Below, in pieces: positions 4,348 to 63,555 of a stretch of 64,000 bases of DNA. A model generated the notes under the pieces. The model saw nothing but the letters and a program-made list of their open reading frames with translations. It did no database searches and had not been told where the DNA came from. Positions within the stretch are counted from its first letter, which is position 1; every line of letters begins with the position of its first letter. The translations under genes were made by a program, and so were the position numbers. Source of the DNA: Deroplatys truncata (Eukaryota; Arthropoda; Insecta; Mantodea; Mantidae); the NCBI GenBank assembly GCA_030765065.1, contig CM060975.1:201786007-201850006 (forward strand). The letters are read 5' to 3'.

Positions 4348-4454
4348 ATGTAAGTCAGGTTGTATTCCACCCAAAAAATCGATGTCTAGATTTCATCGGA
4401 ACTATGTTTTGAGGCTCCTTGAACCCCAAAAAAGCGCATTTTTAGAAGAAAGTC

Positions 4455-4495
<41 letters not shown>

Positions 4496-4771
4496 TGTGT
4501 GAACAACACAGTCGAATAAATACCAATATTTAAGTAAGTTCAATATCTTCCAAAGATGCGGCACGAAGACTTTCAAGAAAATCCCCCCCAGCCTCAACTA
4601 CGTTTTACATGGAACATTTTTCAAAATGTTTGATTTTCTGAAAAATGGCTCTGACGATTTTTATTAAACCACCACATCTTCAAGATATTTACATGACAAA
4701 TAAAATGTATACCTTAATTTTCTGGGATTAACCTGTAAAATGTTATTTCGGAAGGAATTTTGTATAATTTT
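4348..4771 (+). repeat. R870 copy 1, left part
   Basis: It starts with the family signature TGTATTCCACCCAAAAA and continues through the (GT)n tract at 4455-4494, the CTTCAAGATATTTACATGA segment and the AATTTTCTGGGA segment. It stops abruptly at 4771, where a probable solo LTR begins. The same consensus resumes at 5635, so the two parts are one split copy. Confidence 0.85.
4455..4494 (+). repeat. (GT)n microsatellite inside R870 copy 1
   Basis: This is a pure GT run of about 20 units followed by GTCTGTGTG. It sits at the same place in the R870 consensus as the dinucleotide tracts in most other copies, between CATTTTTAGAA and AACA.CA. Confidence 0.95.
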
Positions 4772-5634
4772 TGAAGCAGTAATTTGTATCACAATAATGT
4801 AAATGTCAGAATGATTGTAGTGTGAATATGCATTGTTGTGTGATATTGATTTGAGATGTTTGTTGATTGTAAGCATTGTTGAGAAGTGGGTTTATACGGC
4901 CTTACTGAAACTGACAATAATAGCGTGCAATAATGTAGCGAGGGGGTGAGCTGTTTATCACTATTAGAGACGAGCAAATGACGTCAGAGTGGCGTGTTTT
5001 TCTTAGAATTTTCGGGAACATTTTCCCCAGAGCATATGTTTTCGTAATTTTCATTGGATATAAATATAGACGTTAATGTTGGCGCGTTTTATTAACCAAT
5101 AGCAGCTCGGTTATAATCTTTAGGCATATTGGGGCGAGGAAGTATAAATTCAGTGTCAGGGTCAAGTTTCACATAGTTCAACGGAGGCATTCATGGAGTA
5201 GCGTCGCACGCAGTTCATCAAGGTTACGCGTAGCAAATTTATGAAAAATCCCAAGTGTCGTAAAGTTAATTACACAAAAAGTTGAAGTACGCGAATTAAT
5301 AATGGGCAGTAAAGAAGTTATTATAACAGTTTCAGTTTGGCGAGTGTCAAGATTAATAGGTGAAAGTGAATAATGTGTTACGACAATAAAAGTGTAAAAC
5401 AAATTCTTTTATCAGTGTTATCTTTGGATAAAAACTCCTTTCCGTTTACACACCTTGTACAAGATAAGTGCTTGACCGAGAAATCATAGCTAGCCGGAGG
5501 ACAGTGAATCCAAAATTAAATACAATAACAGGCGCTCAGTAAAAGATAACACGAAGTGACCGCGACAAATTGTCTTTCATACGTGCGGCAGATAAACAGT
5601 AGCATCTTTCGAACATAAACAAATAAACACTTCA
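4772..5634 (+). mobile_element. Probable solo LTR (863 bp) inserted in R870
   Basis: It begins TGAAG and ends CTTCA, the inverted TG...CA ends of an LTR. The flanks are TTTT (4768-4771) and TCTT (5635-5638). The uninterrupted R870 consensus has a single TCTT here, so this is a 4-bp target duplication with one C-to-T change. Inside are a CCAAT-like ACCAATAGC near 5095, a TATAAAT near 5143 followed by TCAGTG, which suits an initiator, and AATAAA near 5384 and 5622. There is no gag or pol, and no second LTR was seen, so it probably arose by LTR-LTR recombination. A Gypsy origin would fit a 4-bp duplication, but the superfamily is not proven. Confidence 0.7.
5140..5156 (+). promoter_or_regulatory. 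Putative LTR core promoter (TATA and initiator)
   Basis: The sequence AGTATAAATTCAGTG carries a TATAAA box immediately followed by TCAGT, close to the arthropod initiator TCAGT. Normal TATA-Inr spacing is about 30 bp, so the two here are too close to work together as a standard pair. Either could act alone. Its place in the middle of the solo LTR suits a U3/R boundary. Confidence 0.4.
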
Positions 5635-6052
5635 TCTTGTATAGGACGTTAAGCAATAGACGAAAACGCACTACACAAAACATTTAGATCTCTGCAAAGC
5701 ACGCAATTTATTTCAAATAACTGTTTTTGTGGCATCAGCCATTTCTGAGATGTCCGTTATTAATGGTTCAAGTTGTTCAATACTTAGACATTCTTTTAAA
5801 GTCCTGTCGATTTTCAGCTGCTTCTCGTGATGCATGGAAAGAGTATGAAATTTTAAGCCTAGCGTATTTTGATTATCGCTACTCCCTTTGTATCTAAGAG
5901 TATAACGAAATTTGAAATACAGCTATTTCCGGAAAGGTTTATCTTGATTAAAATGCAGTAGGTAGCAAAATAAACGTTGATAATAATTTGTATACCCACT
6001 AATAAGCGATAGAGGGTAGAGAAAGTCGTGTGAATGTAACCATCAGATTTTT
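5635..6052 (+). repeat. R870 copy 1, right part
   Basis: It resumes the consensus with CTTGTATA and runs through GACGAAAACGCACTAC, GTCCGTTATTAATGGTT and GGTAGAGAAAGTCGTGTGAA to the terminal CATCAGATTTTT. It belongs to a sub-type shared with the copies at 43128 and 46152: AATAAGCGATAGAGGG, and CCGTTATTAATGGTTC with TTGTTCA. Confidence 0.85.
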
Positions 6053-6913
6053 AGTATAGAGTAGGTAATTAATGAATTTAAAAGTACACTAAAATAAACT
6101 CTCTGAACACCCATTCCCCTAATTGTACGTATTTGTTATCCAATATTCATTAATGTGTTAGAGCTTATGCACTGTAAATTATACACAAGACAGAATATGA
6201 AATTACTCACAGCACAAAACAAAAAATATCCGAGAGAAACTAATAGGTAGGTATTTTATGAAGGCTAACACTTGGAATCATACCTATTCCAAGCACTAAC
6301 ATTTCAGTTGTCATTTACTTAGAAGTAGAGGTCAAATTTGGACCCCATAGCTCCACCCCCGCAAAAAACAGAAAATAGTCGCTTCCCATAACTACTTATG
6401 TAGAATTTTAAACTTTGAAATGTTAATTACCAAATTTGTATGAATCACTTCTAAACATTTCATTAAATTTGAACAAAGAGAGAAGAAGGCTCTAGAAACT
6501 CCACGAGTAGCCCCTTGGTGGAAAATAGAAATGGGAAGAAGAAGAAGAAGAGAAACTAAATATAAAAAGCGATAACGATTTAGAATAATGAGTAGGAAAG
6601 AATGATATAGGAAGGACACACTAAAACTATACACATTATAGGTAAAGAAAATATGCGGAAAAATAGATATGATAGCACAAGAAGATAAAAATAGAATAGG
6701 GGTAAACCTAAGGTGTTCTAGAAGCAAGAGAAAAAAGAAAGAAGAGAACCAAGAGAAGAATGTTAAATAAAGTAACAGGAAACAAAAGAATAATTACCAG
6801 GAAGAAGAGAAGATACACAATGGAAAATCTAGCAGAAGGGGAAGAAAGCAAGAATTAGGGAAATAGTATGGAATGCGAGGCAGCAGAAAACGAAGAGGAT
6901 ATGAGAGGTAAAA
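6053..6913. other. AT-rich then purine-rich stretch
   Basis: From about 6440 the + strand is strikingly rich in A and G, with AGAAGAAGAAGAG near 6536, and nearly pyrimidine-free runs. Open frames on the opposite strand here are a by-product of that composition. No gene is recognised. Confidence 0.6.
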
Positions 6914-7135
6914 TTAAATTGAGTTTTATTTATGGACGCTCTTTAACTACTATGGTTCCTTAGCGTTCCATTCTACATTGGGCGAGAACGACCACAAATT
7001 TTGCTCAGAGGCCTCTTTACCAGGCTTGAGGCTCTTTTACGTGCCGAGAATCGACGACACGGGACCACCGGCTTGACTTCCCTTCCGAAGGAAGCTATAC
7101 TAAGGATTTTGTCGCTCGAAAAAATTCATCGCCTT
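6914..7135 (-). mobile_element. SINE family C, head-truncated copy
   Basis: Read on the minus strand it ends in the family C tail ATAAATAAAACTCAAT and contains AAAGAGCGTCC, GTAGAATGGAACGCTA and GGAAGGGAAGTCAAGCC. The tRNA-like head present in the copies at 50655 and 59930 is missing or replaced beyond about 7135. It lies in the middle of the purine-rich tract. Confidence 0.8.
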
Positions 7136-7560: not shown

Positions 7561-7569
7561 CCGAGGAAG

Positions 7570-8060: not shown

Positions 8061-8076
8061 GAACTTATCTAAAAAC

Positions 8077-8792
8077 AAATCTGATGTGTTACAATCACAT
8101 GATTTGCCCTACTTTTGTACAAACTATTTTTACAAACGCTTATTCTCCGTCTGCTTTACGTTAATCGAGATAAACATTTGAAGAAACTATGTTATTGTTA
8201 GTTTTCTTGTAGGTGCAAGGGGAATATGGTAGGCTTTAAGCGACAGTCAAATCTTTTAAGAGCTGGTTGCTATGTGGAACATTGCATTCTCTTTGCTTGT
8301 CCAGGACATAAAATAAAAATAATAAATAAATAAAAAGAACAACGAAACCCATTTGAGAAAAAGTATAAGTATTGGAAATTTCAAACAAATAACAAGGAAT
8401 AACTCGGAAATGGTCTACTCCAAAATATATATATATATATGACAAATTGTGTGTTTTACCGAGATCTACATATTTTTATAGTAAAACTTTGTCTATCTCT
8501 TACGGTTTACCAATTATGCAAAAGTTATTCAAAAGAACTTTTGGAGACATTTCCAGAAAATTCAAATTATGCGTTTAATTTGTCATGAAAATATCTTAAA
8601 TATATGATATTTTAATCAAAATCGTTAGAGATATTTTTCAGAAAATCAAAATTTTCGAAAAATGTTCCATATAAAGGGTAGTCTGGGTTGAGGGATTTTC
8701 TTGAAAATCTTCGTGTCGCATCTTTGAAAGATACTGAACCTAAATACCAAGTTTGGTATTTATCCGACTTTTCGTTTTTGAGTTATGATGTA

Positions 8793-8856
<64 letters not shown>

Positions 8857-8871
8857 CGGACCTTTTTCTAA
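8077..8871 (-). repeat. R870 copy 2
   Basis: It opens with AAATCTGATGTGTTACA, then TCGAGATAAACATTTG, TTTAAGCGACAGTCAAATC, the ATATGATATTTTAATCAAAA segment and AAATGTTCCAT. It reaches the microsatellite at 8792-8853 and stops after TTTTTCTAAAAAT, where a second R870 end begins. The remaining ~100 bases of the family are absent. Confidence 0.9.
8792..8853. repeat. 62-bp alternating purine-pyrimidine tract (AC)n(GC)n(AC)n
   Basis: About nine AC units are followed by an uninterrupted GC block of about eight units and then about 14 more AC units. It lies at the standard microsatellite position of R870. An uninterrupted GC block flanked by AC runs is the classic sequence for left-handed Z-DNA. Confidence 0.95.
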
Positions 8872-9077
8872 AAATCTGACGTGTTACACTCACATGACTT
8901 TCTCTACTCTTGTATACAAGCTATTTTTAAAAACTCTTATTCTCCATCTATTTCATATTAATCGAGATAAACGTTTGCAGAAACGATCTTTTGACATGCA
9001 AAGAGAATTACATTTTACACATAGCGACCAGTTCTAAAAATATTTGACTATCGCTTAAGGCGTACTATGTTCCCTTG
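8872..9077 (-). repeat. R870 copy 2b, partial, nested against copy 2
   Basis: A fresh R870 terminus (AATCTGACGTGTTACACTC) starts exactly where copy 2 breaks off, and runs through TTTGACTATCGCTTAAGGCG to about 9077. Both are on the same strand. It lacks everything after the TCCCTTG segment. It is either a nested insertion or the product of a template switch. Confidence 0.8.
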
Positions 9078-9376: not shown

Positions 9377-9391
9377 GAAGTCTTAGGTTGC

Positions 9392-11149: not shown

Positions 11150-11195
11150 CCTACATGTTTTGAGACCCCCTAAATAAAATACAGCATTTTTAGGA
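11150..11195 (+). repeat. R870 copy 3, right fragment
   Basis: ACATGTTTTGAGACCCCCTA then GCATTTTTAGGAAAA follows the consensus directly on from the fragment left of the SINE. It ends where an R870 fragment on the other strand begins. Confidence 0.7.
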
Positions 11196-11204
11196 AAATA
11201 TCTA

Positions 11205-11490
11205 TAAAATAACGAAAATTGTTCCGTTACAGGGTAGTTTGATGTGGGGGGATTTCACGAAAATCTTCGAGTGGCATCCTTGGAAGATGCTGAACTTAAA
11301 TACCAAATCTTGTATTTGACTTTTTGTTTTTGAGTTATGCTGTTCACAAAAGACACACACAAACACACGGACGATTTTCTAAATTATTTGGCTTCAGTGG
11401 GCCTCAGAACAAGTACTTCTGGTGAAGTTTCAATACCTATAAATTTTTTGGGTAGGTATTGCGTAGGTATTTACGTAAGTAGTAGAGAAA
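11205..11490 (-). repeat. R870 copy 3b, partial, inverted
   Basis: It runs from the AAAATTGTTCC segment through GGGATTTCACGAAAATCTTCG, a short CA tract near 11355-11368 and the terminal TACGTAAGTAGTAGAGAAA. It lies tail to tail with the + strand fragment just before it. Confidence 0.8.
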
Positions 11491-12260
11491 TCTCCTAGAG
11501 AATATTAAATAATAATTCTCTGTTAATTTTCATAATTATTTCAAAATAATTATGTATGAAATTATACAATTTAAATAAAAAAATGTAATTTCATGTTCCA
11601 AAATTTAATATTCATGCATTTTCTCCATAGTTAATGACTAAAAATCATTACCTTAGGGGTAACAGCATAATTCTTTTATCTTAACAGGACAAATTCTTAC
11701 TACTCTATATTTCATTTATTACATTATAAATCCTTTAATATATTAGAACACACATGTTTGAAAATAAAAGAAACGAATACTAAAGAGAATATCTAAAAGA
11801 AAAAATGTGCTTTCTATTGCAATTTTCCCCTCAAAACTCGGTAGTCTTTATGAGCCGGTAAAACTTAAATTCCACTCTGAGTATGTATATGGCGAAGTTG
11901 AATATCAAGGACCAGGTTTTGCAATTCTTTGACTTATTAGCTTCGCTCGACAGTCACAAAACAGGACAAGACTCGTTGACACTCAAAAAGTTAACTGGTT
12001 CTTCCGTTACTTCTTTTTTTGCTGAAAGATGACACCAAACGTTCATGAATATTTAGTACCTCCACACAAATGTTTCTTTATTCTTGTTCAGCAAAGCAGA
12101 AATGGTTTTCTTCTAAGCTCCGAATTAGATGTGTAATCATGAACAAAACCTGTTGTGGAAAGATTGAAACATGGCTAGAATAATCGTTACACTTCGGTGT
12201 TACAAAGTGTCCGATTCCACTTCTTCTTTCCTGTTCTCTCAATGCAGAGCATTCCCCCCC
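11491..12260. other. AT-rich stretch with no recognised feature
   Basis: I see no gene, SINE head or R870 segment here. Confidence 0.5.
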
Positions 12261-12398
12261 CCTTTCTCTACCATATATGGAGTAGGTATCTAAAGATGGT
12301 ATTGCATTCCACCCAAAAATTCCGATATCGAGATTTCATCCGGAATGCATGTTTCGCGGTTCCTTTAACCCCAAAAGAATCATTTTAGAAAAAGGTCG

Positions 12399-12465
<67 letters not shown>

Positions 12466-13098
12466 CAGCAAAACTGAAAAGTCCGATAAATGCCAAACAT
12501 TTAAGTTCAGTATCTTCCAATGATGCGACACGAATATTTAAGAAAATTCCTCCACCCCAAACTACACTTTATACGGAATATTTTTCGAAATTTTTCTACT
12601 TCTCAAAAATGGCTCTAAAGTTTTTGACTAAAATACCATATATTTAAGATATTTACACGATAAATAAAATGTTTATCTTGAATTTTCTGGGAATAGCCTC
12701 TGAAGTGCTTTGCATACCTATATGGTAAATCATAAGAGATAGACAAAATATTACTACACAAAATGTAGATCTCGTTAAAGCACACAATTTATTTATTTTT
12801 TATGGAGATAACAATTCTGAAATATTCCTTGTAATTGGTTTGAATTTTCAAATACTTATACTTTTCTCAAACGAAAAGTCGTTATTCCACCTTTTTTTTC
12901 GTGGTCATGAAATGTCAAACCCATCACATAGTGACATGCTCTATAAAAATCTTACTTTCGCTTTAATTACTGTATCTTAGAACGAAATTTGTAAACGTGA
13001 GCTGAACGTTTATCTGGATTAACAACAGATAGCTAGAAGAATAAGGTTGTGTAAGAACAGCAGTAGAAAAGTGAGTAGAAAAAGTAATCAGAATTTTT
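12261..13098 (+). repeat. R870 copy 4
   Basis: It is near full length: CTTTCTCTACC and GTAGGTAT at the start, GCATTCCACCCAAAAATTC, the (GT)n tract at 12403-12462, AAATACCATATATTTAAG, GAGATAGACAAAATATTAC, and an eroded end, GTAGAAAAAGTAATCAGA. Its last 200 bases are more diverged than the rest. Confidence 0.85.
12403..12462 (+). repeat. (GT)n microsatellite inside R870 copy 4
   Basis: This is a pure GT run of about 30 units at the conserved microsatellite position, directly followed by GAACAGC of the R870 consensus. Confidence 0.97.
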
Positions 13099-14013: not shown

Positions 14014-14870
14014 ACTTTCTCTACTACGTATAGTAAGTAGGGGAAGTATTGTATTCCACCCAAAAATTCGATACCGAGATTTCACCGGAAATACATTTTT
14101 TGAGACTCCCTGAATCCAAAAAAAGCATTTTTGGAAACATGTCCGTGTGTGTGTCTGTGTGTGTGTGTCTGTGAACAGCATAACTCAGAAACGAACAGTC
14201 GGATAAACACCAAACTTGGTATTTAGGTTCAGTATCTTCCAGAGATGCGACGCGAAGGTTTTCAAGAAAATCCCCCACCCTAGACTACCCTTTACATAGA
14301 ACATTTTTCGAAAATTTTAATTTTCCCAAAAATGGCTCTAACGATTTTGATTACAATATCATATGTTTAAGGTATTTTCATGACAAATGAAATGTATATC
14401 TCGAATTTTCTGGGAATGTCTCCAAAAGTGTTCTTCATTCTGAACGACTTTTGCATAACTGGTAAACCATAAGAGATAGACAAACTTTTACTGCACAAAA
14501 AATGTAGATCGCGTTAAAATACACAATTTATGTCATGTACATTTTTATTTGTTGAGTGAACCGTTTTCGAGATTTTGCTTGTTATTCCTTAAAATTTTCC
14601 AATACTTATACTTTTTCTCAAATTCGTTATTAATTTTTTTTATGTCCTGGACATGCAAAGAAAATGGAATGCGCCACATAGCAACCAGCTCTTAAAATAT
14701 TTGACTATCGCTTAAAACCTACCATATTCCCTTGCATCTACAAGAAAATTAGCAATAAGATTAACATCTCGATATCTCGATTAACGTGAAGCATATGGAG
14801 AATAAGCGTTTGTAAAAATAGTTTGTACAAGAGTAGAGAAAGTCATGTGAGTGTAACACATCAGATTTTT
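14014..14870 (+). repeat. R870 copy 5, full length
   Basis: This is the best-preserved + strand copy: ACTTTCTCTACTACGTATAG with a facing AGTAGGGGAAGT (a terminal hairpin), TTCCACCCAAAAATTCGATA, a short GT/CT tract at 14144-14172, CAAACTTGGTATTTAGGTTC, GGTAAACCATAAGAGATAGA, ATGTCCTGGACATGCAAAG and the end GTAGAGAAAGTCATGTGAG then ACACATCAGATTTTT. It is 857 bp. TTTTT lies on both sides, so any target duplication cannot be told from the termini. Confidence 0.92.
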
Positions 14871-18328: not shown

Positions 18329-18360
18329 CACATTACTTTCTCCATCCATCATCGTTTATT

Positions 18361-18746
18361 ACTTTCTCTATTGTAGAGTGAGTAGAGGAAGTATTGTATT
18401 CCAGTCAAACATTCGCTGTCGAGATATCCCAAATACATGTTTTGAGGCCCTTGAACCCCCAAAAAAGCTTTTTAGAAAAAGGTCCATGAGTGTGTCTGCG
18501 AACAGCATAACTCAAAAACGAAAAGTACCTACGTAAATACCAAACTTGGTATTTAAGTTCAGTACTTTCCAAAGATGCGATTTTCACCCCAAACTCACCT
18601 TTACGTGAAATAAAAATTATTCTAATGATTTTTATTAAAATATCTTACTTAAAATGTTAGCACCACAAATAAAATATAGATATATCTTGAAAGTCGTTTT
18701 CATTCTGAGTAACTTTTGTATAAACGGTAAGAGATAAATCTTACTA
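18361..18746 (+). repeat. R870 copy 6, left part
   Basis: It starts ACTTTCTCTATTGTAGAG, continues GTATTGTATTCCAGTCAAAC and CATGTTTTGAGGCCC, and has almost no microsatellite (GTGTGTC only). It is interrupted at 18746 by a family A SINE and continues at 19082. Internal deletions shorten it around 18590-18700. Confidence 0.85.
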
Positions 18747-19081
18747 TTCATGCATTCATTCATTACCTGTTTACCCTCCTCTTATGTAGGACTTACACCC
18801 CCCAGGACTTACAAGCGGGTACCTGGGGTCAGAGGCCCGTCGAGGAGCAGACACTCATGGATCAGACAGAGCATCCAGGATGCGTGATCAGCCCGTAGTA
18901 GATGAAACGAAATGTTGGAGCAGTTGGTGGAATGAATGGCGGGGGAAACCGGAGAACCCAGAGAAAACCCGCCCAGACGCCGCTTCGTCCACCACAAATC
19001 CCACATGCCGGTCCCTGGGATTGAATCCGGGCCGCCTCGGTGGGAGGCGAGCGGTCTAACCACTCGGCCACGGCGCCGCCT
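18747..19081 (-). mobile_element. SINE family A, full-length head, 14-bp target duplication
   Basis: GATAAATCTTACTA lies at 18733-18746 and 19082-19095. On the minus strand the head reads GGCGCCGTGGCCGAGTGGTT with the A box TGGCCGAGTGGTTAGA and the B box GGATTCAATCC, close to a Leu/Ser-type tRNA. The body matches the copy at 9392, and the 3' end carries ATGA repeats (AATGAATGAATGCATGAAT). It is the best copy for defining the family's 5' end. Confidence 0.92.
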
Positions 19082-19252
19082 GATAAATCTTACTAGACAA
19101 AATTAAATCTCATTAAAGCAAAAGATTTATGTTAAAACCTTTTTGTGGAGTTGATTAACAAGAAGTGCTAGAACAATAAGCTTTTGTATGGTAAGAATAG
19201 TTTGTAGAAGGATGATTAGGGAAGGTCATATGAATGTAACACACAAGATTTT
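19082..19252 (+). repeat. R870 copy 6, right part
   Basis: It resumes with the duplicated target GATAAATCTTACTA, then AAATCTCATTAAAGC, and ends GAAGGTCATATGAATGTAAC then ACACAAGATTTTG. Its end lies directly against an inverted R870 copy. Confidence 0.8.
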
Positions 19253-19255
19253 GTT

Positions 19256-20133
19256 GTATCTCTTCTACAAACTATTCTTACAAAATATTTTTATCGAGGT
19301 ATATATGTTTCAGAAATGGTTTCATTACACGCTGCGTTGTATGCACAATATAATTGTTATCGATAGCCTAGAGCTTAACTGCCCCCCCCCAAGAAAAACT
19401 ATTGGAAAAGAGCAAAGATTATCTCGAATACACTAATTCTGTGCTTTAACTAAGTCTACATATTTTATGTGGTAAGTTTTTGTCCATCTCTCATGGTTTA
19501 TAAGATATACCTAACTATACACAATTCAGTCAAATAAAGAGGAATTCACAAGAATTTGGAGGAAATTCAAGATATGTACTTCTTTTATTGGTTATGCAAT
19601 TTTGCAAACATGTGGTCCTTTAATCAAAACCGTTACAGCCATTTTTGAATAAATAAAAAAATATCGAACGCCTTTTCATCTAAAAGATAATCTGGGGTGA
19701 ATGAATTTTACTGAAAACCTTCGTGTCTTCATGTCGAGAAAATTTACCATCCTTAGGTGTCGGCGGGAGTCTCCCTTACTCCCCCGAAATGAGGGCGGTA
19801 TGGAGTCCAGGGCCCCTCAGGGGATGTGTAAGCCCGCAGGGGGGGAGGGGAACCGATTGCATCAGCTGTCATACAGGGAGTTTCAATCTATACAAGGTGG
19901 GGACCCTGCCCTACACCCTGTCGTGACGCTCTCTGTTTCCTCTCAACTCACCTCGCCCTCCCAGGGGACAGGCACAACAGATCTTTTAAGTCGAAGTGCT
20001 AAGTCCTCCTCCACAGCTCGTAGTCCTAGTCCTAAACACCAACTTTGGTATTTTATTCGATATTTACCTATATTGAGTTTATCATAAACAGATTTACTTC
20101 AGAGTACTTCAAAACTTTTGGAATTTTTGGGTA
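19256..20133 (-). repeat. R870 copy 7, head to head with copy 6
   Basis: It starts CTTCTACAAACTATTCTTAC, the complement of the segment at 19187-19212 in copy 6, then ATCGAGGTATATATGTTT, CATCTCTCATGGTTTA and TCTGGGGTGAATG. A GC-rich insertion splits it at 19728-20033. It ends with CTTTTGGAATTTTTGGGT. Confidence 0.8.
19728..20033 (+). mobile_element. GC-rich ~300 bp insertion of unknown family inside R870
   Basis: R870 sequence breaks off after CCTTCGTGTC and resumes at CACCAACTTTGG. Between lies DNA far richer in G and C than anything near it: CGGCGGGAGTCTCCC, AGGGCCCCTCAGGGG and GGTGGGGACCCTGCCC. It has several short inverted motifs, and no A/B boxes or target duplication that I can see. No second copy is in the window. 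It may be a SINE or a structured RNA-derived retrocopy. Confidence 0.6.
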
Positions 20134-20137
20134 AAAC

Positions 20138-20240
20138 AAATCTGATGTGTTGCGATTACACCTACTCTATAAATTATTCTCAAAAAGCTTTGCTTTCCTA
20201 ATTATTCTTGTTAACCATGATAAATGTTTTTAAAGGATTT
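20138..20240 (-). repeat. R870 copy 8, terminal fragment
   Basis: AAATCTGATGTGTTGCGATT then ATTATTCTTGTTAACCATGA match the R870 terminus. The copy fades after about 100 bases. A detached R870 start fragment on the same strand lies at 20575-20650, possibly its other end. Confidence 0.6.
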
Positions 20241-20574
20241 CAATATACGTTTTACTGTAACGTGAATACGTACTTAGAATCATGCATATCAAATACTAAT
20301 CCATTATTAGTACCAGAGTCGAAGGTAAAAAGCAGTTTGCTTGCTATTTTCAAAACTTATTGTATGGTCTAATTACAAGCAAAAAAGGACATAACATTTC
20401 AGAAGTGCATAGCTTTAGATACAGGAAAGTTCGAACCAACAACAGAAAATATTTCGTAAACGGCTAAGACTACAAAAAAAGTGATTTAGCACACATTTTA
20501 TATTTTAAGAAATCTTTTTTTTTTAACTGAAATACGTTTTCCTTTATTCCTTATGGCTTCATAGTTGAATGCTT

Positions 20575-20650
20575 TAACTGGGCTCAGGGGATCTCAAAAC
20601 AGGTATTTTTGTTGAAATCTCACTACCGAGATACAAGTACTTCCTTTACT
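20575..20650 (-). repeat. R870 terminal fragment
   Basis: GGATCTCAAAACAGGTATTT, GTTGAAATCTCACTACCGAG and TACTTCCTTTACTATTC match the other end of R870. With the fragment at 20138 it may be one copy with an unrelated or heavily diverged middle. Confidence 0.55.
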
Positions 20651-21130
20651 ATTCAGTGTAAAGCGTTTACTATTGGAATCTAAAACATAATACATAATCA
20701 CGATACATTAAATGACAGGTATAGATAGCAAAAAACGTTTCATGATATCGCAGGTCACCTCAAACAAAAACTAGAGCAACACAAGTAATTTTCCCGAAGT
20801 CCGCTTGGGGAGCGCAGTATTACTCCCATTCACTTTCCAGTGAGTTAAGCACATATCTGAGTGCAAATTAATACCCATCATCTAAACCTTCAACGAATTT
20901 CTTTATCCTTAGAATTATTATTTTATGTTCTGTTGAGAAAAGTACCATAGCATGTGTGCTCTACCGCCTCCGTCCTACATTAGCTAATTTGGAGAATTAC
21001 CAAGAAAAGTAGTGATAAAATGCAACTTGCGATTAACGGACACATAGGGCATTCAAAACATATAAAATATGTCAAGAATTGAAATAGAGCAGCGAAAGAG
21101 TGAGAAAAATCACCTTAAATTAATTTAAAT
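20651..21130. other. Stretch with no recognised feature
   Basis: AT-rich; nothing is recognised before the SINE cluster. Confidence 0.5.
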
Positions 21131-33580: not shown

Positions 33581-33650
33581 AAAAAAAGAGCTTACTTGAG
33601 AAACATATAAAACTCATTAAAATATGCAACTTGTATCAAATATGTGTTCG
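33581..33650 (+). repeat. R870 copy 10, right part
   Basis: GAGCTTACTTGAGAAACATA then AACTCATTAAAATATGCAAC resumes the consensus after the SINE. The copy fades out soon after. Confidence 0.65.
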
Positions 33651-36110: not shown

Positions 36111-36116
36111 TAAAAA

Positions 36117-41101: not shown

Positions 41102-41105
41102 TTTT

Positions 41106-41820
41106 TACTTTCTCTACTTCGTATAGTAAGAAAGGGAAGTATTTCATTCCACCCAAAAATTCGATATAGAAATATCACCAGAAATACATGTTTTGAGGTC
41201 CCTTAATAAAATTTTTTAGAAAAAGGTCCCTGCAAGTGTGTATATGTGTGCCTGTAAACAGCATAACTCAAACAGGAAAAGTCGGGTTTGGTATTTAAGT
41301 TCTTTATATTTCAAAGATAAGACAGGAAGATTTTCGAGAAAGTCCCCCATCCCACACTACCATTTACATCAAACATTCTTCGAAAATGTTTATTTTCTCA
41401 AAAACGACTAACGATTTTGATTAAAACAACACATGTTTAAGATATATGTTTATCTTGAATTTTCTGGTAATGTCCCCAAAAGTTCTCTTTAATTTACTAC
41501 ACAAGAAATGTAGATATTGTTAAAACACAATTTATTTCATACACTTTTTTGTAGAGTAAACCCTTTTCGAGATATTCCTTGTTATTTGTTTGAATTTTCC
41601 AGAACTTGTACTTTTTCTCAAATGGGAATTCTTATTCGTTGTTTTTATGTTACTAGGTAAGTATTGCCTAATTTGAAATCTTTACTAGGCAACAGTGGAT
41701 CATAAATTACGTAAAGTAGATAGAAGAATAACTTTTTTAAGAATATTGTAATACATAGATAGTAAAGTATAATGTGAATTTTAATGGGTAGAGAAAGTCG
41801 TATCAAACGTTACGAAAATC
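41106..41820 (+). repeat. R870 copy 13
   Basis: It begins ACTTTCTCTACTTCGTATAG directly after copy 12, continues CATTCCACCCAAAAATTCG, a weak GT tract near 41237-41250, and ends GGGTAGAGAAAGTCGTATC. The arrangement (copy 13 starting inside the TTAAAATA region of copy 12) suggests a nested insertion at an A/T-rich site. Confidence 0.85.
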
Positions 41821-43127
41821 AATGTAGAAAATTAATTTTTTCATTTATATAGCCCTCTTTAACTTTTTAAGTTATATTGGAGGTTTTGATTTGAGAAACA
41901 ACGTTAGTTTTTATGAGTTTTTACACACTCGGATTTAATTCTACATTCATATTTCCAGACTCTTTGGGAGATAGGGGTGGTTAAAGAAAACTTCCCCGCT
42001 CCAGCTGGGAATCGAACTTTGGACCTCTGGGTTGATAAGCCAGAGAGTTAACACTGGACCGCAGATGCGGTCAAATTCTATTTTATTGTGAAGTAAATTG
42101 TAAGGTAAACAAATTTAGAATGCCACGTACAGTAAGCCAAATATACAATTTCCTATTTGATTTCACTTAGATATGAAGTTAATAGAACTTTCTGACATTC
42201 AGTAAAACATACATGACAGCTTAAAAACAGTTCAGTGATACAAATACACAATTGGCGCTAGACTGATATCGCATTCCGAAAGCATGGCTTTTTGAAGGTC
42301 TTGCCAATTTTAAAGCATGATACTGCGTCCAAACTCTCATCGTAGCGTTCACGTCACAAAGGCTGCGTCTTAATGTATGCAACTCCCGGTCGCATACTTC
42401 CGACGCAGATCGAAATGCCGCGACATGGCCCATTTCGTTTGCAAAACAAAAGAATGAGCAATTGATCGAGGCCGTAAAAGGCACATGACGCTGGGCTTAT
42501 GAGCCTCCCTACAACACGTAGAGGAAGATATGCAAAAGAAACAAAAATTCCGGATCGCATATGTATGTATTTACAAATAAAAGATGGAAGTACTAGCCGC
42601 AGAACAGTCGTATAAATATACACGTCAATTAAGGATTCAATCTGGTTGGATTATGCGCACTCCCTCACAAACCGGTTTCCTCGTGCAAATATCGAGGATT
42701 CGTTAGGGAAGAAAATACAATAGCGGCTCTAAGAATTATGCGAACATGATGGCTAAATGTTATTATGGCCTTTTGAATTATGCCGTGCTATTTGACTGGA
42801 CGAAAACATGTACACCATTTTGGGATGAGTCCAATAACCACAGGTCTGCCGTAAAATATGAGACGGTTATCTCCTAATGTACAGTTTGCAGCAACTAATG
42901 GCGACAGCGCTTTCTGAATACCTTTAGTTACATTCCTGCCAGGTTTCATCCTGTCATACGAAAACTCGCAGCTTTTTCGTGTAGAAAAAGGAGATTGTAA
43001 ACATTCGAAAGCGACTGTTCACCATGGAAAAGATATACGACCGCGAGTAAAGCTTAAGAAACCCCATCTGCGAAATTAAAAAAAGAAGAAAAAATCAATA
43101 ATTTCAAGTAGATACAGTTCAATGTTT
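41821..43127. other. Stretch holding one SINE head and unassigned DNA
   Basis: Apart from the tRNA-like SINE at 41960-42072, I recognise no family. The segment 42350-42700 is less AT-rich and contains CGTATAAATATACACG (TATA-like) near 42609, with no linked frame. Confidence 0.4.
41960..42072 (-). mobile_element. SINE family D, diverged copy
   Basis: On the minus strand: CCGCATCTGCGGTCCAGTGT then AAAGTTCGATTCCCAGCTGG, a GCGGGGAAGTTTTCTTTAAC body start, and an A-box-like GCGGTCCAGTGTTAAC. The anticodon loop region is tRNA-like. The body after the head follows family D (GGGAA..TTCTTTAA). Confidence 0.7.
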
Positions 43128-43830
43128 ACTTTCTCTACTACTTACGTAGTAGTTAGAGAAGGTATTACATTCCACCCAAAAATACGATACCGAGATTTCA
43201 TTGGAAATACATGTTTTAAGCCCCCTGAATAAAAAGAAAGCATTTTTAGAAACAGATCCGCGCGCACATATAAACGAAATGTTTAGGATCAGTACCTTCT
43301 AAAAATGTAACGATATTTTGAAGAAAATCCCGCCACCCCAAACTATCCGTAACATGGAGCATTTTTCGAAATTTTTGAATTTCTAAAAAAATGGCTGTAA
43401 CGATTTGGATTAAAATACTACCTATTAATGATATTTACATGATAAATAAAATGTATATCTGGGAACAGACTTTGAAGTCTTCATTCCGATGGAATTTTGT
43501 ATAATCTTGTATAACTAGTAAACTTTATTCGGCAAACCAAAACATACTAAATAGAAATGAACATCTCTTTAAAATGCATAATTTATTTCTACGTTTTTTT
43601 TTAGCATAAGCCATTTCTGAAATATCCGTTATTAATGGTTCGAATTGTTCATTTCTTAGCCATTCTTTAAAGTCCTTTCAACATTCAGCTGTTTCTCACG
43701 ATTGCATGGAAACAGTGCGTCCAGTCCTTAAAACACTTGAATATCGCTGTTCCCTTTTTACGTATAACGAAATGGCAATGCAGCTATTTCTGCAAAAGTT
43801 TATTTGGACTAAAATGAAGTAGAGAGAAAA
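43128..43830 (+). repeat. R870 copy 14
   Basis: ACTTTCTCTACTACTTACGT, TTCCACCCAAAAATACGATA, a nearly lost microsatellite (GCGCGCACATATA), ATCCGTTATTAATGGTTCGA and GAAACAGTGCGTCC. It belongs to the sub-type of the copies at 5635 and 46152. It ends around AAATGAAGTAGAGAG. A short inverted terminal piece follows at 43837-43915. Confidence 0.85.
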
Positions 43831-43836
43831 AAATAA

Positions 43837-43915
43837 ATTTTGATGTGATACGTTCACAAGACTTTCTCTACCCTCTATCATTTATTAGTGGGCATTAGTA
43901 TTCTTACTAAAGCTT
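43837..43915 (-). repeat. R870 terminal fragment, inverted
   Basis: TTTTGATGTGATACGTTCAC, ACTTTCTCTACCCTC and TATTAGTGGGCATTAG match the start of the copy at 46152 in the opposite orientation to its neighbours. It is sandwiched between two + strand copies. Confidence 0.7.
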
Positions 43916-43924
43916 ATTTTTCTG

Positions 43925-44668
43925 TCTGCTTCCATTCCAAAATTGATACCCAGAGTTTACGTAAAATACACGTTTTGATATTCCCTGAATCCAAAAAAGC
44001 ATTTTTAGAAACAGGCCTGCGTGTGAGTGTATCTGTGTGTGTCGATAAACAGAACTCAAAAACGAAAAGTCGGTGAAATATCAAACTGGGTGTTTTAGTT
44101 TCTTCCAAGGGTGAAAATTTTTCAAGCAAATCCCCCCCCCCATCTCTAACTATCCTTTACATGGAAACATTTTTATTATTTTTTTTTTTACTTTCTCGAA
44201 AATGACTCTCACAATTTTGATTGCTTAAGATATTCTTGAATTTTCTGTGAATAGCTTATGCAGTCCTTCTATTCGGAATGAATTTCATATAATTTTGTAC
44301 ACTACTACACCACAAGAGATGGGAAAAAGATGAAGCATGTAGATCTGGTTGAAACACAAGTTTTTTTATCAAATATATATTTTGTAATATCGACCAATTG
44401 CTGCTACTGGTTTGAATGTTTCCCTACTTTATCATTGCTAGGTCAACATTCTTTTGTTTCTTTGTACGTGTATTTATTGCTTCAGCCTCCTGTTACTTTT
44501 GTACCTATAACGAAATGTATAATGAAATTATTTCTGTGAACGTTTTTCGTGATTAGCATGAAGCAGTAGACAGAAAAATAAAGTTCTATAAGAGTAGTGT
44601 TTAGAAGAGGGATCAAAATAAACTAGCGGATAGAGAAAGTCATCTGAATGTAACACAGCCGATCTTAA
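43925..44668 (+). repeat. R870 copy 15
   Basis: CCATTCCAAAATTGATACCC, CACGTTTTGATATTCCC, a GT tract at about 44022-44041, CTATCCTTTACATGGAAAC and the end GATAGAGAAAGTCATCTGAA. Its very first ~40 bases are replaced by the inverted fragment before it. Confidence 0.8.
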
Positions 44669-46151: not shown

Positions 46152-46830
46152 TAAATCGGATGTACTACATTCGCATGACTTTCTCCACCCTCTATCGCTA
46201 ATCAGTGGGTATAAAAATTATTCTTACGAAAGTTTAATTTCCTATATTCTTAATTTTAATCGAGATAAACCTTTCCGGAAATAGCTGCATTACACATTTC
46301 GTTATAGATACAAAGGGAATAACGAAAGTCGAATGCTTAACGGGACGCTATACGCTGGCCTTAGAATTCCATACTGTTTCAATGGAATCGCGAGAAACAA
46401 CTGAATGCTGACAAGACTTTAAAGAAGGACTATGTATTGAACAATTCCAACTATTAAAAACGATGTCTCAAAAATGGCTGATGACACAAAAAAAGTTATT
46501 TGAAATAAATTGTATGTTTTAAAAAGATCTAAATTTCTTGTGTAGTGCGTTTTCGTCTTTCCCTTAACGTTTACCAGTTATACAAGATTATACAAAATTC
46601 CAGATATATGTTTTATTTCCATGTATATATATATATTTAATATATGGTATTTTAATAAAAAAACGCTACAGGCATTTTTAGAAAATAAAAAAATTCGAAA
46701 AATGTTCCATGTCAAGTATAGTTTGGGGTGGGGGATTTTCTTGAAAATCTTCGTGTAACATCTTTGGAAGGTACTGAACTAAAATACCCAATTTGATGTT
46801 GATCCAGCTTTTCGTTTTTGAGTTATGCTG

Positions 46831-46882
<52 letters not shown>

Positions 46883-46988
46883 TGGACATTTTTCTAAAAA
46901 TGTTAGTTTTTGTATTCAGAGGACCTCAAAACATGAAATTACCGTATCGTATTTTTGGATGGTACAGAATACGTGGTAGAGAAAGTAA
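46152..46988 (-). repeat. R870 copy 16, full length
   Basis: TAAATCGGATGTACTACATT, CGAGATAAACCTTTCCGG, GATGTCTCAAAAATGGCTGA, AAAAAATTCGAAAAATGTTC and GGGATTTTCTTGAAAATCTT, then (TC)n(AC)n at 46834-46882, and the end GGTAGAGAAAGTAAAAAT. It is the full-length representative of the sub-type also seen at 5635 and 43128. Confidence 0.9.
46834..46882 (+). repeat. (TC)n(AC)n microsatellite inside R870 copy 16
   Basis: A CT run passes directly into CA units at the conserved R870 microsatellite position. The TC part is absent from the GT/CA type copies, so the tract was gained or replaced in this sub-lineage. Confidence 0.95.
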
Positions 46989-51064: not shown

Positions 51065-51784
51065 TTCAATAATAAATATATGTGATATAAACATTCGAGT
51101 GCTGTTTCCACATCTTACATATACCAAACCAAGTCCGTATTGCGTGACTTGAAAGCATTTCTGAGGCAAACATTTGTCGTAATTAACGGAAGCAGAAAGA
51201 GAAATCAGCTTTTATACAAATAGCATTATATATTCGATTAGCTTTGAATTACTAATGGGCAAATAAATTCGTGTGTGTCAAACATCACCTTTTTCTTATT
51301 TCTGATGTGGTTTCTTCGCTTTCTAGTTGAACTACAAGAGATGTTAATAATTATCTCGTTGATTTTCCTCCTTTCCTCAAAACGTCGTACAGGAGATTTC
51401 TTTAGGCATTTGAAGCTAAGTATTCTCACTTGTAAATCACAATAGTTATGTCAGAAGTGTAGTTTTATTGATGTTTGTCGTCTGAATACGGATATGCTTC
51501 GGTAAAGCTTGGCTTTAGAATTTTCAAGGACAGATTCCCATTTGAAATTATAATATGCTACAAGATTTCGCTGCGAACAGACTTTTAATCTTCGTCATTT
51601 CATAAAGGCTGCTTCTGGTTTTGCTGACGCCAGAAGTCTGTACTTTTCTGTATACTTATTGATATTGTGTTAGCTGAAGATATTGCGCATCTCATTACAC
51701 AGAGTTTCCAACACTTTGACTTAAAGAAAACACAGTAACCATAAAGATGGAGAAACAATAAACTCAAGCACAATTTTATATAAA
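51065..51784. other. AT-rich stretch with no recognised feature
   Basis: Nothing is recognised here. Confidence 0.5.
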
Positions 51785-52620
51785 AAATCTGATGTGCTGA
51801 CTTTCTCTACTCCTGTAAAACTATTTTACAAACCCTTATTCCCCATTTACTTCATATTAATCCAGATACACATTTGCAGAAATTATCTTAATGCTAATTT
51901 TCTTGTAGGTGCAAGGGGAATATGGTAAGCTTTAAGCGACAGTCAAATCTTGTAAGATCTGGTTGCTATGTGGAGCATTCTATTATCTTTGCATGTCCAG
52001 GACATAGAAAAAACGAATAATGAATTCCCATTGGAGAAAAAGTATAACTATTAGAAAATTCGAACAAATAACAAGAAATGTCAAGGAAATAGTTCACTTC
52101 AAAAAAAAAAAAAAAAAAAGTAAATGACATAAATTGTGTGTTTTAAGGAGATCTACATTTTTTGTGTAGTAAAATCGTTCTCTTACGAGTTATGCGAAAG
52201 CCATTCAGAATGAAGAGGACTTTTGGGGACATTCTCAGAAAATTCACGATATACATTTCATTTTCCATGAAAATATCTTAAACATATGGAATTTTAATCA
52301 AACCCTTTAGAGTCAGTTTTGAGAAAATCAAATTTACTCCATCAAAAATGTTCCATGTAAAGGGTAATATAGGGTGGGGCGAGTTTCTTGAAAATCTTCG
52401 TGTCGCATTTTTGAAATATACGAACCTAAATACCAAGTTTGGTATTTATCCGACTTTTCGTTTTTGAGTTATGCTGTTCAAAGACATACACAGGAACCTT
52501 TATTTAAAAATGCTTTTTTTTTAATTTAGGGACCTCAAAATATGTATTTCCGATGAAATCCCGATATCGAATTTTTGGGTTGAATGCTATACTTCCCCTA
52601 CTTACTAAACGTAGTAAAGT
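51785..52620 (-). repeat. R870 copy 18, full length
   Basis: AAAATCTGATGTGCTGACTT (the ACACTCACA segment is deleted), TTAAGCGACAGTCAAATCTT, CATGTCCAGGACATAGAAAA, AAATGTTCCATGTAAAGGG and TTACTAAACGTAGTAAAG. A 19-base A run lies at 52101-52119. The microsatellite is collapsed to CATACACAGG, showing that it is not needed for the copy. Confidence 0.92.
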
Positions 52621-53004
52621 AAACACTGAGTTACAAATTAATAGTTAATTCTATTATATATCTAAGGATATTACAAAAGAATTGCGAAACGCGCCAGTAA
52701 TGTACAATAATCGAGCTTTTAAAAATTTGATGTTGAACTAACATGGCTTCTTGTACCAATTATAAATGCGCATGTGTCGCTGTATTATAGTACTCTTTTA
52801 TACACATTAAGTTAACTACGATAAAGTTTGCCTAGAAATTATATCAAATAAAGCACTATTGAATTAGTTACGCATTCAACATTCAACTGTGTACATCATA
52901 TGTCCGTTTTGATTAGTAGTGTGATCATGCGAAAGAAAAACAGAAACGAATCGAATTTCCCGTTAGATGACATTTTTGTATTTTGAAAAATGTAAACACA
53001 CAGC
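52621..53004. other. AT-rich stretch with no recognised feature
   Basis: Nothing is recognised here. Confidence 0.5.
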
Positions 53005-53292
53005 AAGCAACATTTCAGAAAATTCCTGATGCTGAGAATAAAAAACAGTCGTATGGTATAAATTGTACATTGCAATGAGCTCTAGATTTTTCTGTAGTAA
53101 GCTTATATCTCTTTTGGTTTCCCTTAATACAAAATTCAGTAAGAATGAAGAGGGCTTTACAATCTATTCGCAGAAAATTCACGATATACTTAATTTTTTT
53201 TATTGGCAATGACTCAAATATATGGTATTTTAATCAAAATGAAAAGAATTATTTTTGAGGGGGCAAAAAGGACTTTTTCCTTTTCGTTTTGG

Positions 53293-57427: not shown

Positions 57428-58240
57428 AGAATGTGTTACATTCAAACACTTTCTCCACCCATTCTTCTACAACCTATTCTTACGGAAGCTTACTCTTCTA
57501 ACTACTTCATGTTAAACGAGAAACACTTGCAGAAATGGTTTTATTATGTATTTCCTTATAGGTGCAATGGGAGTAGGGGAATACAGTAGGCTTAAGCGAT
57601 AGTCGAATCTTTGAAGAACTGGTCACTATGTGATGGCTTTGAAATTCCATTCTTTTTGTATGACCAGGAGGAAGTTATACTTCTTCCATTTTTTTTTAGA
57701 AAAGTATAAGTATTTCAAAATTTAAACCTATAAAAAACAATATACCGAAAATGGTTAATTCCACAAAAAGTTTTATTCGACATAAAGTGTGTGCTTTAAC
57801 GAGATATACAGTTTTTTATGCAGCAAGATTTTGTTTAGTCGTTTAGAAAAAAAGAGGATTTTACTGGCTATTCTCCGAAAATTCAAGATTTACATTTCAT
57901 TTGTCATAAAAATATCTTAAACACTGTATTTTAATCAAAATCGTTAGAGCTATTAGAGAAAATAAACATTTTCGAAAACTTTTCTATGTAAAGGGTGGTT
58001 TGGGGTGGGGGATTTTCTTGAAAATCTTCGTATCGCATAGTTAGAAGATGCTGAACTTAAATACCAAGTTTAGTAATTTTCGTTTTTGAGTTATGCTGTT
58101 CACAGACAGACATATACGCACACAGACTTTCTTCTAAAAGGTTTTCGTGGGTTAGAGGCCTCAAAACGTGTATTTCCAGTACTATCTGGACATCGAATTC
58201 TTGGGTGGAATACAATACTTCCTCTACTTGCAAAAGGCAG
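57428..58240 (-). repeat. R870 copy 20, full length
   Basis: GAATGTGTTACATTCAAACA, CACTTTCTCCACCC, TTAAGCGATAGTCGAATC, AAATATCTTAAACACTGTAT and TTGGGGTGGGGGATTTTCTT, with a weak microsatellite (CAGACAGACATATACGCACA) and CTTGGGTGGAATACAATAC at the end. Confidence 0.9.
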
Positions 58241-59099
58241 TAAAAGAAAGACACTCACTGTGTATAACAATTTTAATCCAAATTTTGGGGAGAGCTACTG
58301 AGTTTCTTTACATAGTTTGTATAAATTCATAGCCTCTCTCTTGTGAAAGAGTAATATTTTTATGCTCAGAATTGCAACGCTTGATAAGATTGTTTTTGAA
58401 TTTACATCTGCTAGGATTTTTTTTTCCGATTTTTCCCTGCAATTAGCTAAATAAACCACAGTTAAATTATGCAATATATTATAAGAAAGCTAAATACAAT
58501 TAGGAAATTATTAAAATGCAATTGTTGATCAAAGTAATTCTGACCAATAGTGTGCAACCTTGGAAAGAGCTTGTTAAAGAGTGACCATTTATTTTCTGTA
58601 TGACTTTACTGCAAGATTCAAATTCAAAGCTCACGCCGGATCTCTCAAAAAAGCTTGCCTGGTTTCTATCAATAACTAATAATGTTTATATTTTGTTTCA
58701 GTGCGTCTTGCATTTTGTGAGTAGCTATATTAAATCATTTAGCAAATATAGAAGATAATGTTTTAAAAATCCAAAAAGAGAATTATAAATTAAAGTCTAT
58801 GCTTTATTTGTAAGGGTAACATGGTCCTCATAATAAAAGAATTCTTCAAAGGCAGCACGCTACGGATCGTATGGAACACCAGAAAGTGGAAGTAAAATTG
58901 ATGAGAAACGCATAAGGTACAAGGAACGGAATAAGTCAAAATAAAATTATCAGGACAATTTCAACTTCAGAACATATTATTCATATTGTGGTAAATCGAA
59001 GAAATGGAAGCCCCATTTAGACCGAGTGTTCAACAATATGATGTAGAAGCAAATACTGAATACATACCAGCTGGAAAGATAAGCCTAACTTTTAGCAGG
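58241..59099. other. AT-rich stretch with no recognised feature
   Basis: Nothing is recognised here. Confidence 0.5.
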
Positions 59100-59425: not shown

Positions 59426-59473
<48 letters not shown>

Positions 59474-62100: not shown

Positions 62101-62177
62101 GACTGTTTTGGACTACTTGATTTAAGCAGGGTGTAAAACAAAAATAACAGTGTGCATTACTTTGAGATCTCACAGGA

Positions 62178-62470
62178 TATCCAGTTCGATTAAGAGCGTT
62201 TTCTGGCAAGAATGAAAAATGACAATGTGGCACGCGTCCAGGATGACATAACTGTTGACATTTCGTACTAACTGATGCAGTGCAAGACAAGCGTTCCTAG
62301 TAAATGTTAGTGGGGCGATTCCAATTGCACAAAATACCACACTGTCACTTATTTCTCTTCGAGTCTCTCCTTTCAGCTCCATATAAATGCTTTAATTAAA
62401 TGCAGCTATAGGAATTCTGGGAATTGGTGACTAAGTCGAAATTACGATAACGTTGGCAGATACCAAATAG
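62178..62470 (+). repeat. Local direct duplication, unit 2
   Basis: GGCACGCGTCCAGGATGACA, CTGTTGACATTTCGTACTAA, CAGTGCAAGACAAGCGTTCC and CCAATTGCACAAAATACCAC repeat unit 1 (61089-61400) in the same orientation after about 1.09 kb. The function of the repeated sequence is unknown. Confidence 0.7.
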
Positions 62471-62552
62471 TTGGCTAATGTTCTCAAGTTTTTAAGCTTT
62501 TGTAAATTCTATTCTCTCTCAAGTTTAGTATAACTACTTTAAAGAAGAATGT

Positions 62553-63018
62553 ATTACTTCCTCCACGAGTACTTACAGAAAGTAGAGGAACTGTTGTATT
62601 CCACCCAAAAATTCAATGTCGAGATTTCAAGGAAATACATATTTTGATGTTCTCTGAACCCAAAACAAGATTATTTTTTTTGGAAAATTTTCAAGAAAAT
62701 CTCCCTCCCCAAACTGCCCTTTGTATGGTCAATTTTCTTGATTTTTACAGAAATGGCTGTAATGGTTTTGATTAAAATACATACACTAAAGATATTTGAA
62801 TGGCAAATAAAATGTACATCATGAATTTTCTTGGAATAACCTTGAAGTCCCTTTATTTTGAATGACTCTGTAATTCGTACACTGTAAGATACGTACAAAA
62901 TCTTACTACACAAAAAATAATAGAACTCTTAAAAGCACACATTTTATGTCAAATAAAACTTTTTGTGGCCTTAAACATTTCCAAGAATTTCTTTGTTATT
63001 AGTTTGCGTTTTGAAGTA
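62553..63018 (+). repeat. R870 copy 21, left part
   Basis: TTACTTCCTCCACGAGTACT, GTTGTATTCCACCCAAAAAT, then a deletion that removes the microsatellite section, and CAAGAAAATCTCCCTCCCC, TTTTGATTAAAATACATACA and CTTGAAGTCCCTTTATTTT. A MITE interrupts it at 63019, and it continues at 63331. Confidence 0.85.
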
Positions 63019-63330
63019 CAGGGTGGGCGAAACGTATCTTTAAATGTTAATAACATAGTTAAAGAAGACCTTCGCAAACGGCGATACGTGAACAATTAAC
63101 TGAAAGGAGTTCGCATGATATTTGAAATGATCACCCCTGATATGCTACAACGGATACACACAAGAACATGGCGATGCACCAAGCTTTGTAACAGTATTAT
63201 TCATCATAAATGTTAATGTTAACCAGACATAAATGTTGCAATACACTATTTGTTGTATTCATAACAATGTTTATTTCATATCTAAGTATGCTATGCTATT
63301 AATATGTAAAGGGACCCTGCGCTCACCCTG
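63019..63330. mobile_element. 312-bp MITE inserted in R870
   Basis: It starts CAGGGTGGGC and ends GCTCACCCTG, inverted ends CAGGGTGRGC. The flanks are TA (63017-63018) and CA (63331-63332). The R870 consensus has a single TACTTATAC here, so a TA duplication with one T-to-C change is likely, as for Tc1/mariner-type MITEs. There is no coding frame. The ACAGGGTGG start also resembles the fold-back element at 48709. Confidence 0.85.
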
Positions 63331-63555
63331 CACTTATACTTTTTTTCTCGTGGTCATGCAAAGAGTTTGGAATTTCAAAGGCATCATATAACAATCGGAT
63401 TTTTAAAAGTCTGACTATCGCTTCACCTATTGTAGGTATCCTTCTTGCACCTACAACGTAATGTGTAAATGTATAATGTAAATTTATCTCTATTAAACAA
63501 GAAGTAGATAGAGGAATAACATTCTGTAACAGTAGTTTGTAGAAGAGATTTTTAT
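63331..63555 (+). repeat. R870 copy 21, right part
   Basis: ACTTATACTTTTTTTCTCG, GTCATGCAAAGAGTTTGGAA, GTCTGACTATCGCTTCACC and GAAGTAGATAGAGGAATAAC resume the consensus after the MITE. Confidence 0.85.

Follow-up and report, generated by a model that had tools for sequence, protein, structure and literature searches.

Non-autonomous Helentrons, or HINEs, are held to move by rolling-circle replication through the Rep-helicase of Helentrons (PMC4067079). As described there, the HINEs and DINE-1-like elements of Drosophila, mite and Culex carry subterminal inverted repeats (subTIRs) of 12-15 bp and a 3' palindrome, enter T-rich targets that they leave unmodified and lack coding capacity; some copies contain a microsatellite, and in DINE-1 an inverted repeat (IR) is nested in the 5' subTIR. 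All of these features recur in R870, a repeat family that an initial annotation had proposed in a 64,000-nucleotide stretch of the mantis Deroplatys truncata (assembly GCA_030765065.1, contig CM060975.1, positions 201,786,007 to 201,850,006; hereafter the window), although the likeness to DINE-1 is one of structure and does not come from a comparison of core sequences. Six of the seven features by which HINEs are recognized support membership (subTIRs, 3' palindrome, nested 5' IR, microsatellite, T-rich insertion without target-site duplication, and lack of coding capacity), and for the seventh, an autonomous partner sharing the ends, a near match at the 3' end is seen. Where the initial annotation could assign R870 to no named superfamily, this structure therefore provides a placement: judged from its sequence, R870 is very probably a HINE, a non-autonomous Helentron of the DINE-1-like rolling-circle class that would be moved in trans by a Helentron Rep-helicase.

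Ends, target site and coding capacity of R870

The size and end sequences first proposed for R870 hold. The consensus is 856 bp long, and the quoted 5' end occurs exactly in two window copies (14014, plus strand; 36111, minus strand) and the quoted 3' end in three, rising to five and six sites, respectively, when at most one mismatch is allowed. The element has the 5' end T(n)-ACTTTCTCTACTACG; it starts with T-ACTTTCTC and ends with CAGATTTTT. In the copy at 14014 the two members of a perfect 12-bp inverted repeat (12/12) are placed asymmetrically: one forms the 5' terminus, and the other, the 3' subTIR, lies within the element, from 39 bp to 27 bp before the 3' terminus, as against about 38-60 bp in mite (PMC4067079). 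Inward of the 5' subTIR, ACTTTCTCTACT, a 10-nt spacer is followed by AGTAGGGGAAGT, complementary at 10 of 12 positions by eye, and because of this second complementary copy the 5' end is predicted to fold on itself as a stem. At the 3' end of the consensus the subTIR is followed by an ATGTG-7 nt-CACAT hairpin with a 5-bp stem, and then by CAGATTTTT. A (GT)n-type microsatellite, whose length varies among copies, is present in R870 copies at 4458, 8792, 12400, 14145 and 35912.

R870 inserts into runs of T. Positions -1 to -5 are T in 35-40 of 41 aligned copies, and beyond the T-runs the flanks of these copies have neither a consensus nor a target duplication. When the flanks of 77 complete insertions were joined and searched against the fetched genomic DNA, 20 of the 77 queries returned a junction-spanning match, a count raised by insertions present twice (L002/L009, L003/L010, L004/L011) and by several alignments of poor quality; a few are clean empty sites. 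One of the latter, L065+5839, has a second R870 copy as its target; the joined flanks match at 95% identity, and the unoccupied form is CAAATTCGTTATTCA-TTTTTT-ATGTCCTGG, to which the insertion adds only Ts. For some insertions the target was an older R870 copy, either within its T-tracts or at its closing T-run, which gives rise to nested and head-to-tail arrangements.

These observations bear directly on whether R870 could instead be a miniature inverted-repeat transposable element (MITE), shortened by deletion from a cut-and-paste transposon bounded by terminal inverted repeats and dependent for its copying on, for example, a Tc1-like transposase. The 12-bp inverted repeat would suit such an origin, as would a Tc1/Tc3-like fragment in the window and the report, in the available text of PMC12908712, that Tc1 is the largest component in Deroplatys truncata. 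However, the 3' repeat stops 27 bp short of the 3' end, no target duplication accompanies the 41 aligned copies or the clean empty sites, and a nearly identical terminus is carried by a Rep-helicase element. We rejected a MITE origin on the internal position of the 3' repeat and the empty sites without duplication, and regard it as barely credible.

The proposal that R870 is non-autonomous and encodes no transposase is borne out by a longest stop-free stretch of 77 codons in the consensus and by a Pfam scan of 10 R870-overlapping window open reading frames (ORFs) of at least 85 aa, which gave nothing above the cut-off and one sub-threshold match (E 0.044); further R870-overlapping ORFs fall outside the scope of that scan. 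Ten window ORFs outside R870 gave one match above the cut-off, the Tc1/Tc3-like fragment. Scanning the window with regular expressions for Helitron Rep and helicase motifs returned one chance match to a loose pattern only, and ARAGORN and Rfam returned no match in it.

A Helentron with a nearly identical 3' terminus

The initial annotation had raised the prospect of an autonomous relative sharing the ends of R870; an autonomous-looking Helentron is present in the same genome, and the sharing is seen at one end, the 3' terminus. A genome search with the Helitron_like_N profile (PF14214), in which the best 150 of 291 candidates were scored, yielded 152 matches. One group has near-equal scores, with 18 members in open frames of 2,108-2,543 aa. 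The genome's Helentron assignment draws on two features of this group: a Pif1-type helicase, its 2B domain (PF21530) lying in a frame of equal length for 17 of the 18 long ORFs, and Rep motif 2, which in the single copy read (L069) is VEFQMRGSPHEH, with S between G and P. This S, taken with the signature given in PMC4067079, indicates a Helentron-type Rep. A second Helitron_like_N group is mostly decayed (best span profile 1-191, up to 196 bits, most members with stops) and perhaps represents canonical Helitrons.

Descent of R870 from a canonical Helitron, with 5' TC, a 3' hairpin followed by CTRR, and insertion between A and T, would account for its 3' hairpin and for the lack of target duplication, and the decayed group might supply a source. 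It is nevertheless highly improbable and was rejected: R870 has T-ACTTTCTC in place of 5' TC and CAGATTTTT in place of CTRR, it inserts between Ts, its inverted repeats are subterminal, and the Helentron S is present in the single related Rep that was read.

The coding frame of the Helentron stops at L070 52-54 (the same frame by coordinates), and the end of the element, GTAGAGAAAGTTATGTGAATGTAACACATCAGATTTTT, lies 940 bp further on. Its 3' end, GTAGAGAAAGT-hairpin-CAGATTTTT, is identical to that of R870 at 36 of 38 positions. This boundary rests on two copies with different flanks: the second, on C5, has the same 3' end followed by R870 interior sequence, so that the C5 copy has landed in an R870 T-tract. 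A 400-bp 3'-end probe had 260 candidates, and all 40 that were scored matched at 97-100%, from probe base 1 to query 392-400; with the terminal T-run at 389-395, the probe has five bases past it, and so shows a shared terminus and adds little on the boundary. From density alone an R870 3' end is expected every 11 kb or so along one strand, and the sequence immediately upstream has no R870 match; the terminus that matches at 36 of 38 positions is therefore most likely the Helentron's own.

The Helentron leader also contains R870-like pieces, in plus (model positions 657-731), minus (730 to 454, as three pieces separated by unread gaps) and plus (437-522) orientation. Two leader probes each matched 40 of 40 scored places, at 94-100% and 95-100% identity, respectively. 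Of the second probe's 40 places, 34 have a listed first-probe place no more than about 1.2 kb away; 4 others have a listed Rep match at a distance of 5-6 kb, and for the remaining 2 no such neighbour is listed. The R870-like fold-back thus belongs to the Helentron. Pieces L073-L076 are thus inside the element, L073 and L074 by probe matches and the two between by position; the alternative that L074 is Helentron flank was ruled out, since L074-type sequence recurs across the scored Helentron places. The fold-back (L073, L074-L076; +, -, +) may have a regulatory role as a hairpin, or may have been captured passively.

Several observations weigh against so direct a link between R870 and this Helentron, or against the structural reading of R870 as a HINE. 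The two were compared at the 3' end only, the Helentron 5' terminus lying upstream of the DNA read. In the Helentron pieces compared with R870 (about 2.0 kb on C9 outside Rep, part of the element), nothing significantly matches R870 model positions 1-436 or ~732-817, and positions 523-731 are found only within the leader fold-back. The C-terminal AP-type endonuclease (PF14529) from which Helentrons take their name was not detected in a search in which 150 of 25,627 candidates were scored, none of the 150 being at a Helentron place; about 377 codons, mostly unread, separate the Pif1 2B domain from the stop. Within R870 itself, subTIR pairing averages 11.05 of 12 positions over the 64 copies that were usable among the 69 with both ends (loci L002-L008 having been dropped as the same places as L009-L015), as against 10.96 between copies (permutation p 0.016), a slight excess that shared ancestry could explain, and the 3' hairpin stem is fully intact (5/5) in only 37 of the 64. 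Finally, the scored Helentron 3' ends match the probe at 97-100% identity, while any two of the 41 aligned R870 copies are at least 4.1% apart.

This last difference makes the R870 copies older than the scored Helentron ends, and the present-day Helentron is accordingly not the direct source of the copies measured; an earlier member of its lineage more likely launched them. Compatible with R870 being a HINE, there is close to an even chance that the helper was an older Helentron lineage, since decayed, and that the young Helentron shares the 3' end by descent or took R870 pieces into its leader. The ages of the aligned copies favour such a helper, as do the inverted R870-like pieces in the leader, which look as if R870 copies had been absorbed, while the match at 36 of 38 terminal positions implies at least close kinship of the recognized end.

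With R870 taken as a HINE, the movement model of PMC4067079 suggests by analogy how it would be copied. A Helentron Rep protein would nick at the T-flanked 5' end, single-stranded DNA would be peeled off through rolling-circle replication, the 3' subTIR, the ATGTG/CACAT hairpin and the T-run would stop replication, and the strand would go in between Ts of an oligo-T tract with no target duplication. The Helentron lineage described here, or an older relative, would have driven R870, and self-insertion into its own T-tracts may have helped it pile up.

Abundance, age and copies in the window

That R870 is real and fills about a fifth of the window was confirmed with an nhmmer model. Built from five of the window's copies together with short flanking sequence, it detects 34 fragments, distributed over both strands, that amount to 13,016 bp (20.3%); these chain into 27 copies, where at least 20 had been claimed. 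A second model, from 41 genome copies without flanks, gives 19.4%, and reversed-sequence controls give 0% with the 41-copy and 0.4% with the five-copy model.

Used as a query against the genome (4,289,915,091 bases, 818 contigs), the 14014 copy returned 4,914 first-look candidates, the best 40 of which, when scored, gave 49 matches on 13 contigs; the long matches among them, the query excluded, are 87-95% identical. Because only the best candidates were scored, density was measured instead in 21 blind 10-kb stretches (210 kb) at round coordinates on C1-C13 and C15, a sample that leaves out C14, C16 (alone more than 706 Mb) and the small contigs. Mean R870 coverage in these stretches is 19.0% (bootstrap 95% confidence interval 13.5-24.7%; reversed control zero), with 47 5' ends, 39 3' ends and 15 single-hit complete copies, and with no R870 in 3 of the 21. 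The very high copy number first suggested is thus upheld, and, coverage in the window being near the sampled mean, the window is typical and not unusually rich in R870. Scaled from this sampling to 4.29 Gb, R870 would amount to about 0.8 Gb and on the order of 10^6 copies, a number comparable to that of human Alu. Two exact R870 patterns gave no match in viral_contigs or genome_contigs, a result of little weight.

Of 112 chained copies, 96 have 100 or more aligned bases, and among these the divergence from the consensus of young copies is bimodal: 23 are less than 9% diverged and 55 fall at 18-27%, the older peak partly reflecting differences between sub-families. The 'recent success' that had been suggested thus describes the younger class, while the larger class is older. 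Sub-types likewise exist, but the two motifs attributed to all three of the named copies are each common to two: TTATTAATGGTT to those at 5635 and 43128, and GCGATAGAGGG to those at 5635 and 46152.

Taken together, these observations lead us to propose, tentatively and at somewhat less than even confidence, that a single non-coding Helentron family makes up about a fifth of an animal genome (some 0.8 Gb in about 10^6 copies), having spread partly by way of its own oligo-T tracts, and that the genome still contains a Helentron, very young and probably active, whose 3' terminus is nearly that of R870 and whose leader has absorbed an R870 fold-back. The copies identified in the window are collected in Table 1.

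Table 1. R870 copies, fragments and annotated parts in the window
Feature	Coordinates	Strand
5' half of copy, microsatellite 4458-4501	4360..4774	+
3' half of copy, older sub-type, TTATTAATGGTT at 5757 and GCGATAGAGGG at 6006	5647..6052	+
Copy without first ~165 bp, microsatellite 8792-8853	8073..8824	-
3' end of separate copy, abutting the 8073..8824 copy at an ATTTTT tract	8871..8991	-
Fragment	11185..11454	-
Older copy, (TG)32 microsatellite 12400-12463	12257..13089	+
Complete copy, young sub-type	14014..14870	+
14014 copy: 5' subTIR	14014-14025	
14014 copy: nested complementary IR	14036-14047	
14014 copy: (GT)n microsatellite	14145-14173	
14014 copy: 3' subTIR	14832-14843	
14014 copy: hairpin ATGTG-7 nt-CACAT directly after 3' subTIR; T-run end		
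Interrupted copy: 5' part 18350-18745, 3' end 19153-19263	18350..19263	+
Fragment	19429..19735	-
Old fragments	20133..20654	-
Old fragments (32777-33237, 33573-33691)	32777..33691	+
Complete young copy, expanded (GT)n microsatellite (35912-35980)	35215..36111	-
5' part of older copy	40775..41102	+
Copy next to the 40775-41102 copy, with a T run at the junction	41104..41650	+
Copy, older sub-type, TTATTAATGGTT at 43629	43126..43826	+
3' end fragment, opposite strand, adjoining two + copies	43821..43932	-
Copy without first ~80 bp	43937..44665	+
Copy, older sub-type, GCGATAGAGGG at 46198	46152..46986	-
Nearly complete copy, 5' terminus altered	51783..52622	-
Fragment	52982..53260	-
Older copy	57428..58253	-
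Old copy, three pieces	62555..63547	+

Beside R870, the window contains the Tc1/Tc3-like transposase fragment at 37638-38277 (plus strand). Two ORFs overlap there: the first has HTH_Tnp_Tc3_2 (E 1.3e-12), and the second, with no Pfam match, reads by eye as its continuation. A second interspersed repeat lies at 9338-9680 (plus), 18809-19102 (minus) and 33320-33613 (minus); by eye its ORFs have in common a peptide-like string, GSIPGT..WDLWWTKRRLGGFSPGSPVSP.., and the one copy scanned has no Pfam match. At about 41900-42100 a tRNA-like stretch, GCTGGGAATCGAAC.., was noticed by eye on the given strand, perhaps a short interspersed nuclear element; ARAGORN reports no tRNA in the window. Contig C16, extending past 706 Mb, is far above the other contigs whose length was seen and is perhaps the X chromosome, the X being the largest chromosome in a related mantis according to the available text of PMC12908712.

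R870 beside other rolling-circle elements

Possibly the largest single constituent of this insect genome of 4.3 Gb, R870 gains a name and a mechanism class from this analysis. It can also be placed beside a group of open Helentron frames that closely resemble one another and belong to an element with almost the same end. Helentron movement has so far been inferred from the comparison of genomes, in the parts of the literature used here; a genome that combines young Helentrons with a huge pool of HINEs and with many empty sites in paralogous sequence is a good system for questions of end function, of T-tract targeting and of what brings these elements to a halt.

Recent and ancient bursts of Helitrons in Deroplatys truncata are already reported in PMC12908712, and the two age classes of R870 agree with them. 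The available text of that paper gives no Helitron family, Helentron structure, partner or Helitron percentage, so that the bursts are published at the level of the class, while the R870 family, its Helentron nature and its genomic weight are absent from that text. Our literature searches found Deroplatys together with Helitron in this paper only, and none on Mantodea together with Helentron.

In the sections of the sources used here, Helitrons are put at 6% of a bat genome and 6.62% of that of Heliconius (PMC4067079), rolling-circle content averages 12% in Crassostrea (PMC10294476), and helitrons make up 7-20% of the repeatome of grasshoppers (PMC7486953). At about 19%, R870 exceeds the totals quoted for bat, Heliconius and Crassostrea and is not clearly above the grasshopper values, which take all helitrons together; we claim no record.

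The closest parallel in structure outside the DINE-1-like elements may be drawn with Cg_HINE of the Pacific oyster, as described in the available part of PMC7492417. There the 5' subTIR is 11-12 bp long and is followed after a spacer of 1-12 bp by a complementary IR of 7-12 bp, as in R870, and the two are also alike in having a microsatellite, a 3' subTIR followed by a palindrome, and an oligo-T target without target-site duplication. By contrast, Cg_HINE have central satellite-like tandem repeats, an array of a kind not seen in R870, and their authors found no link to an autonomous Helentron, whereas R870 occurs together with a Helentron that nearly shares its 3' end.

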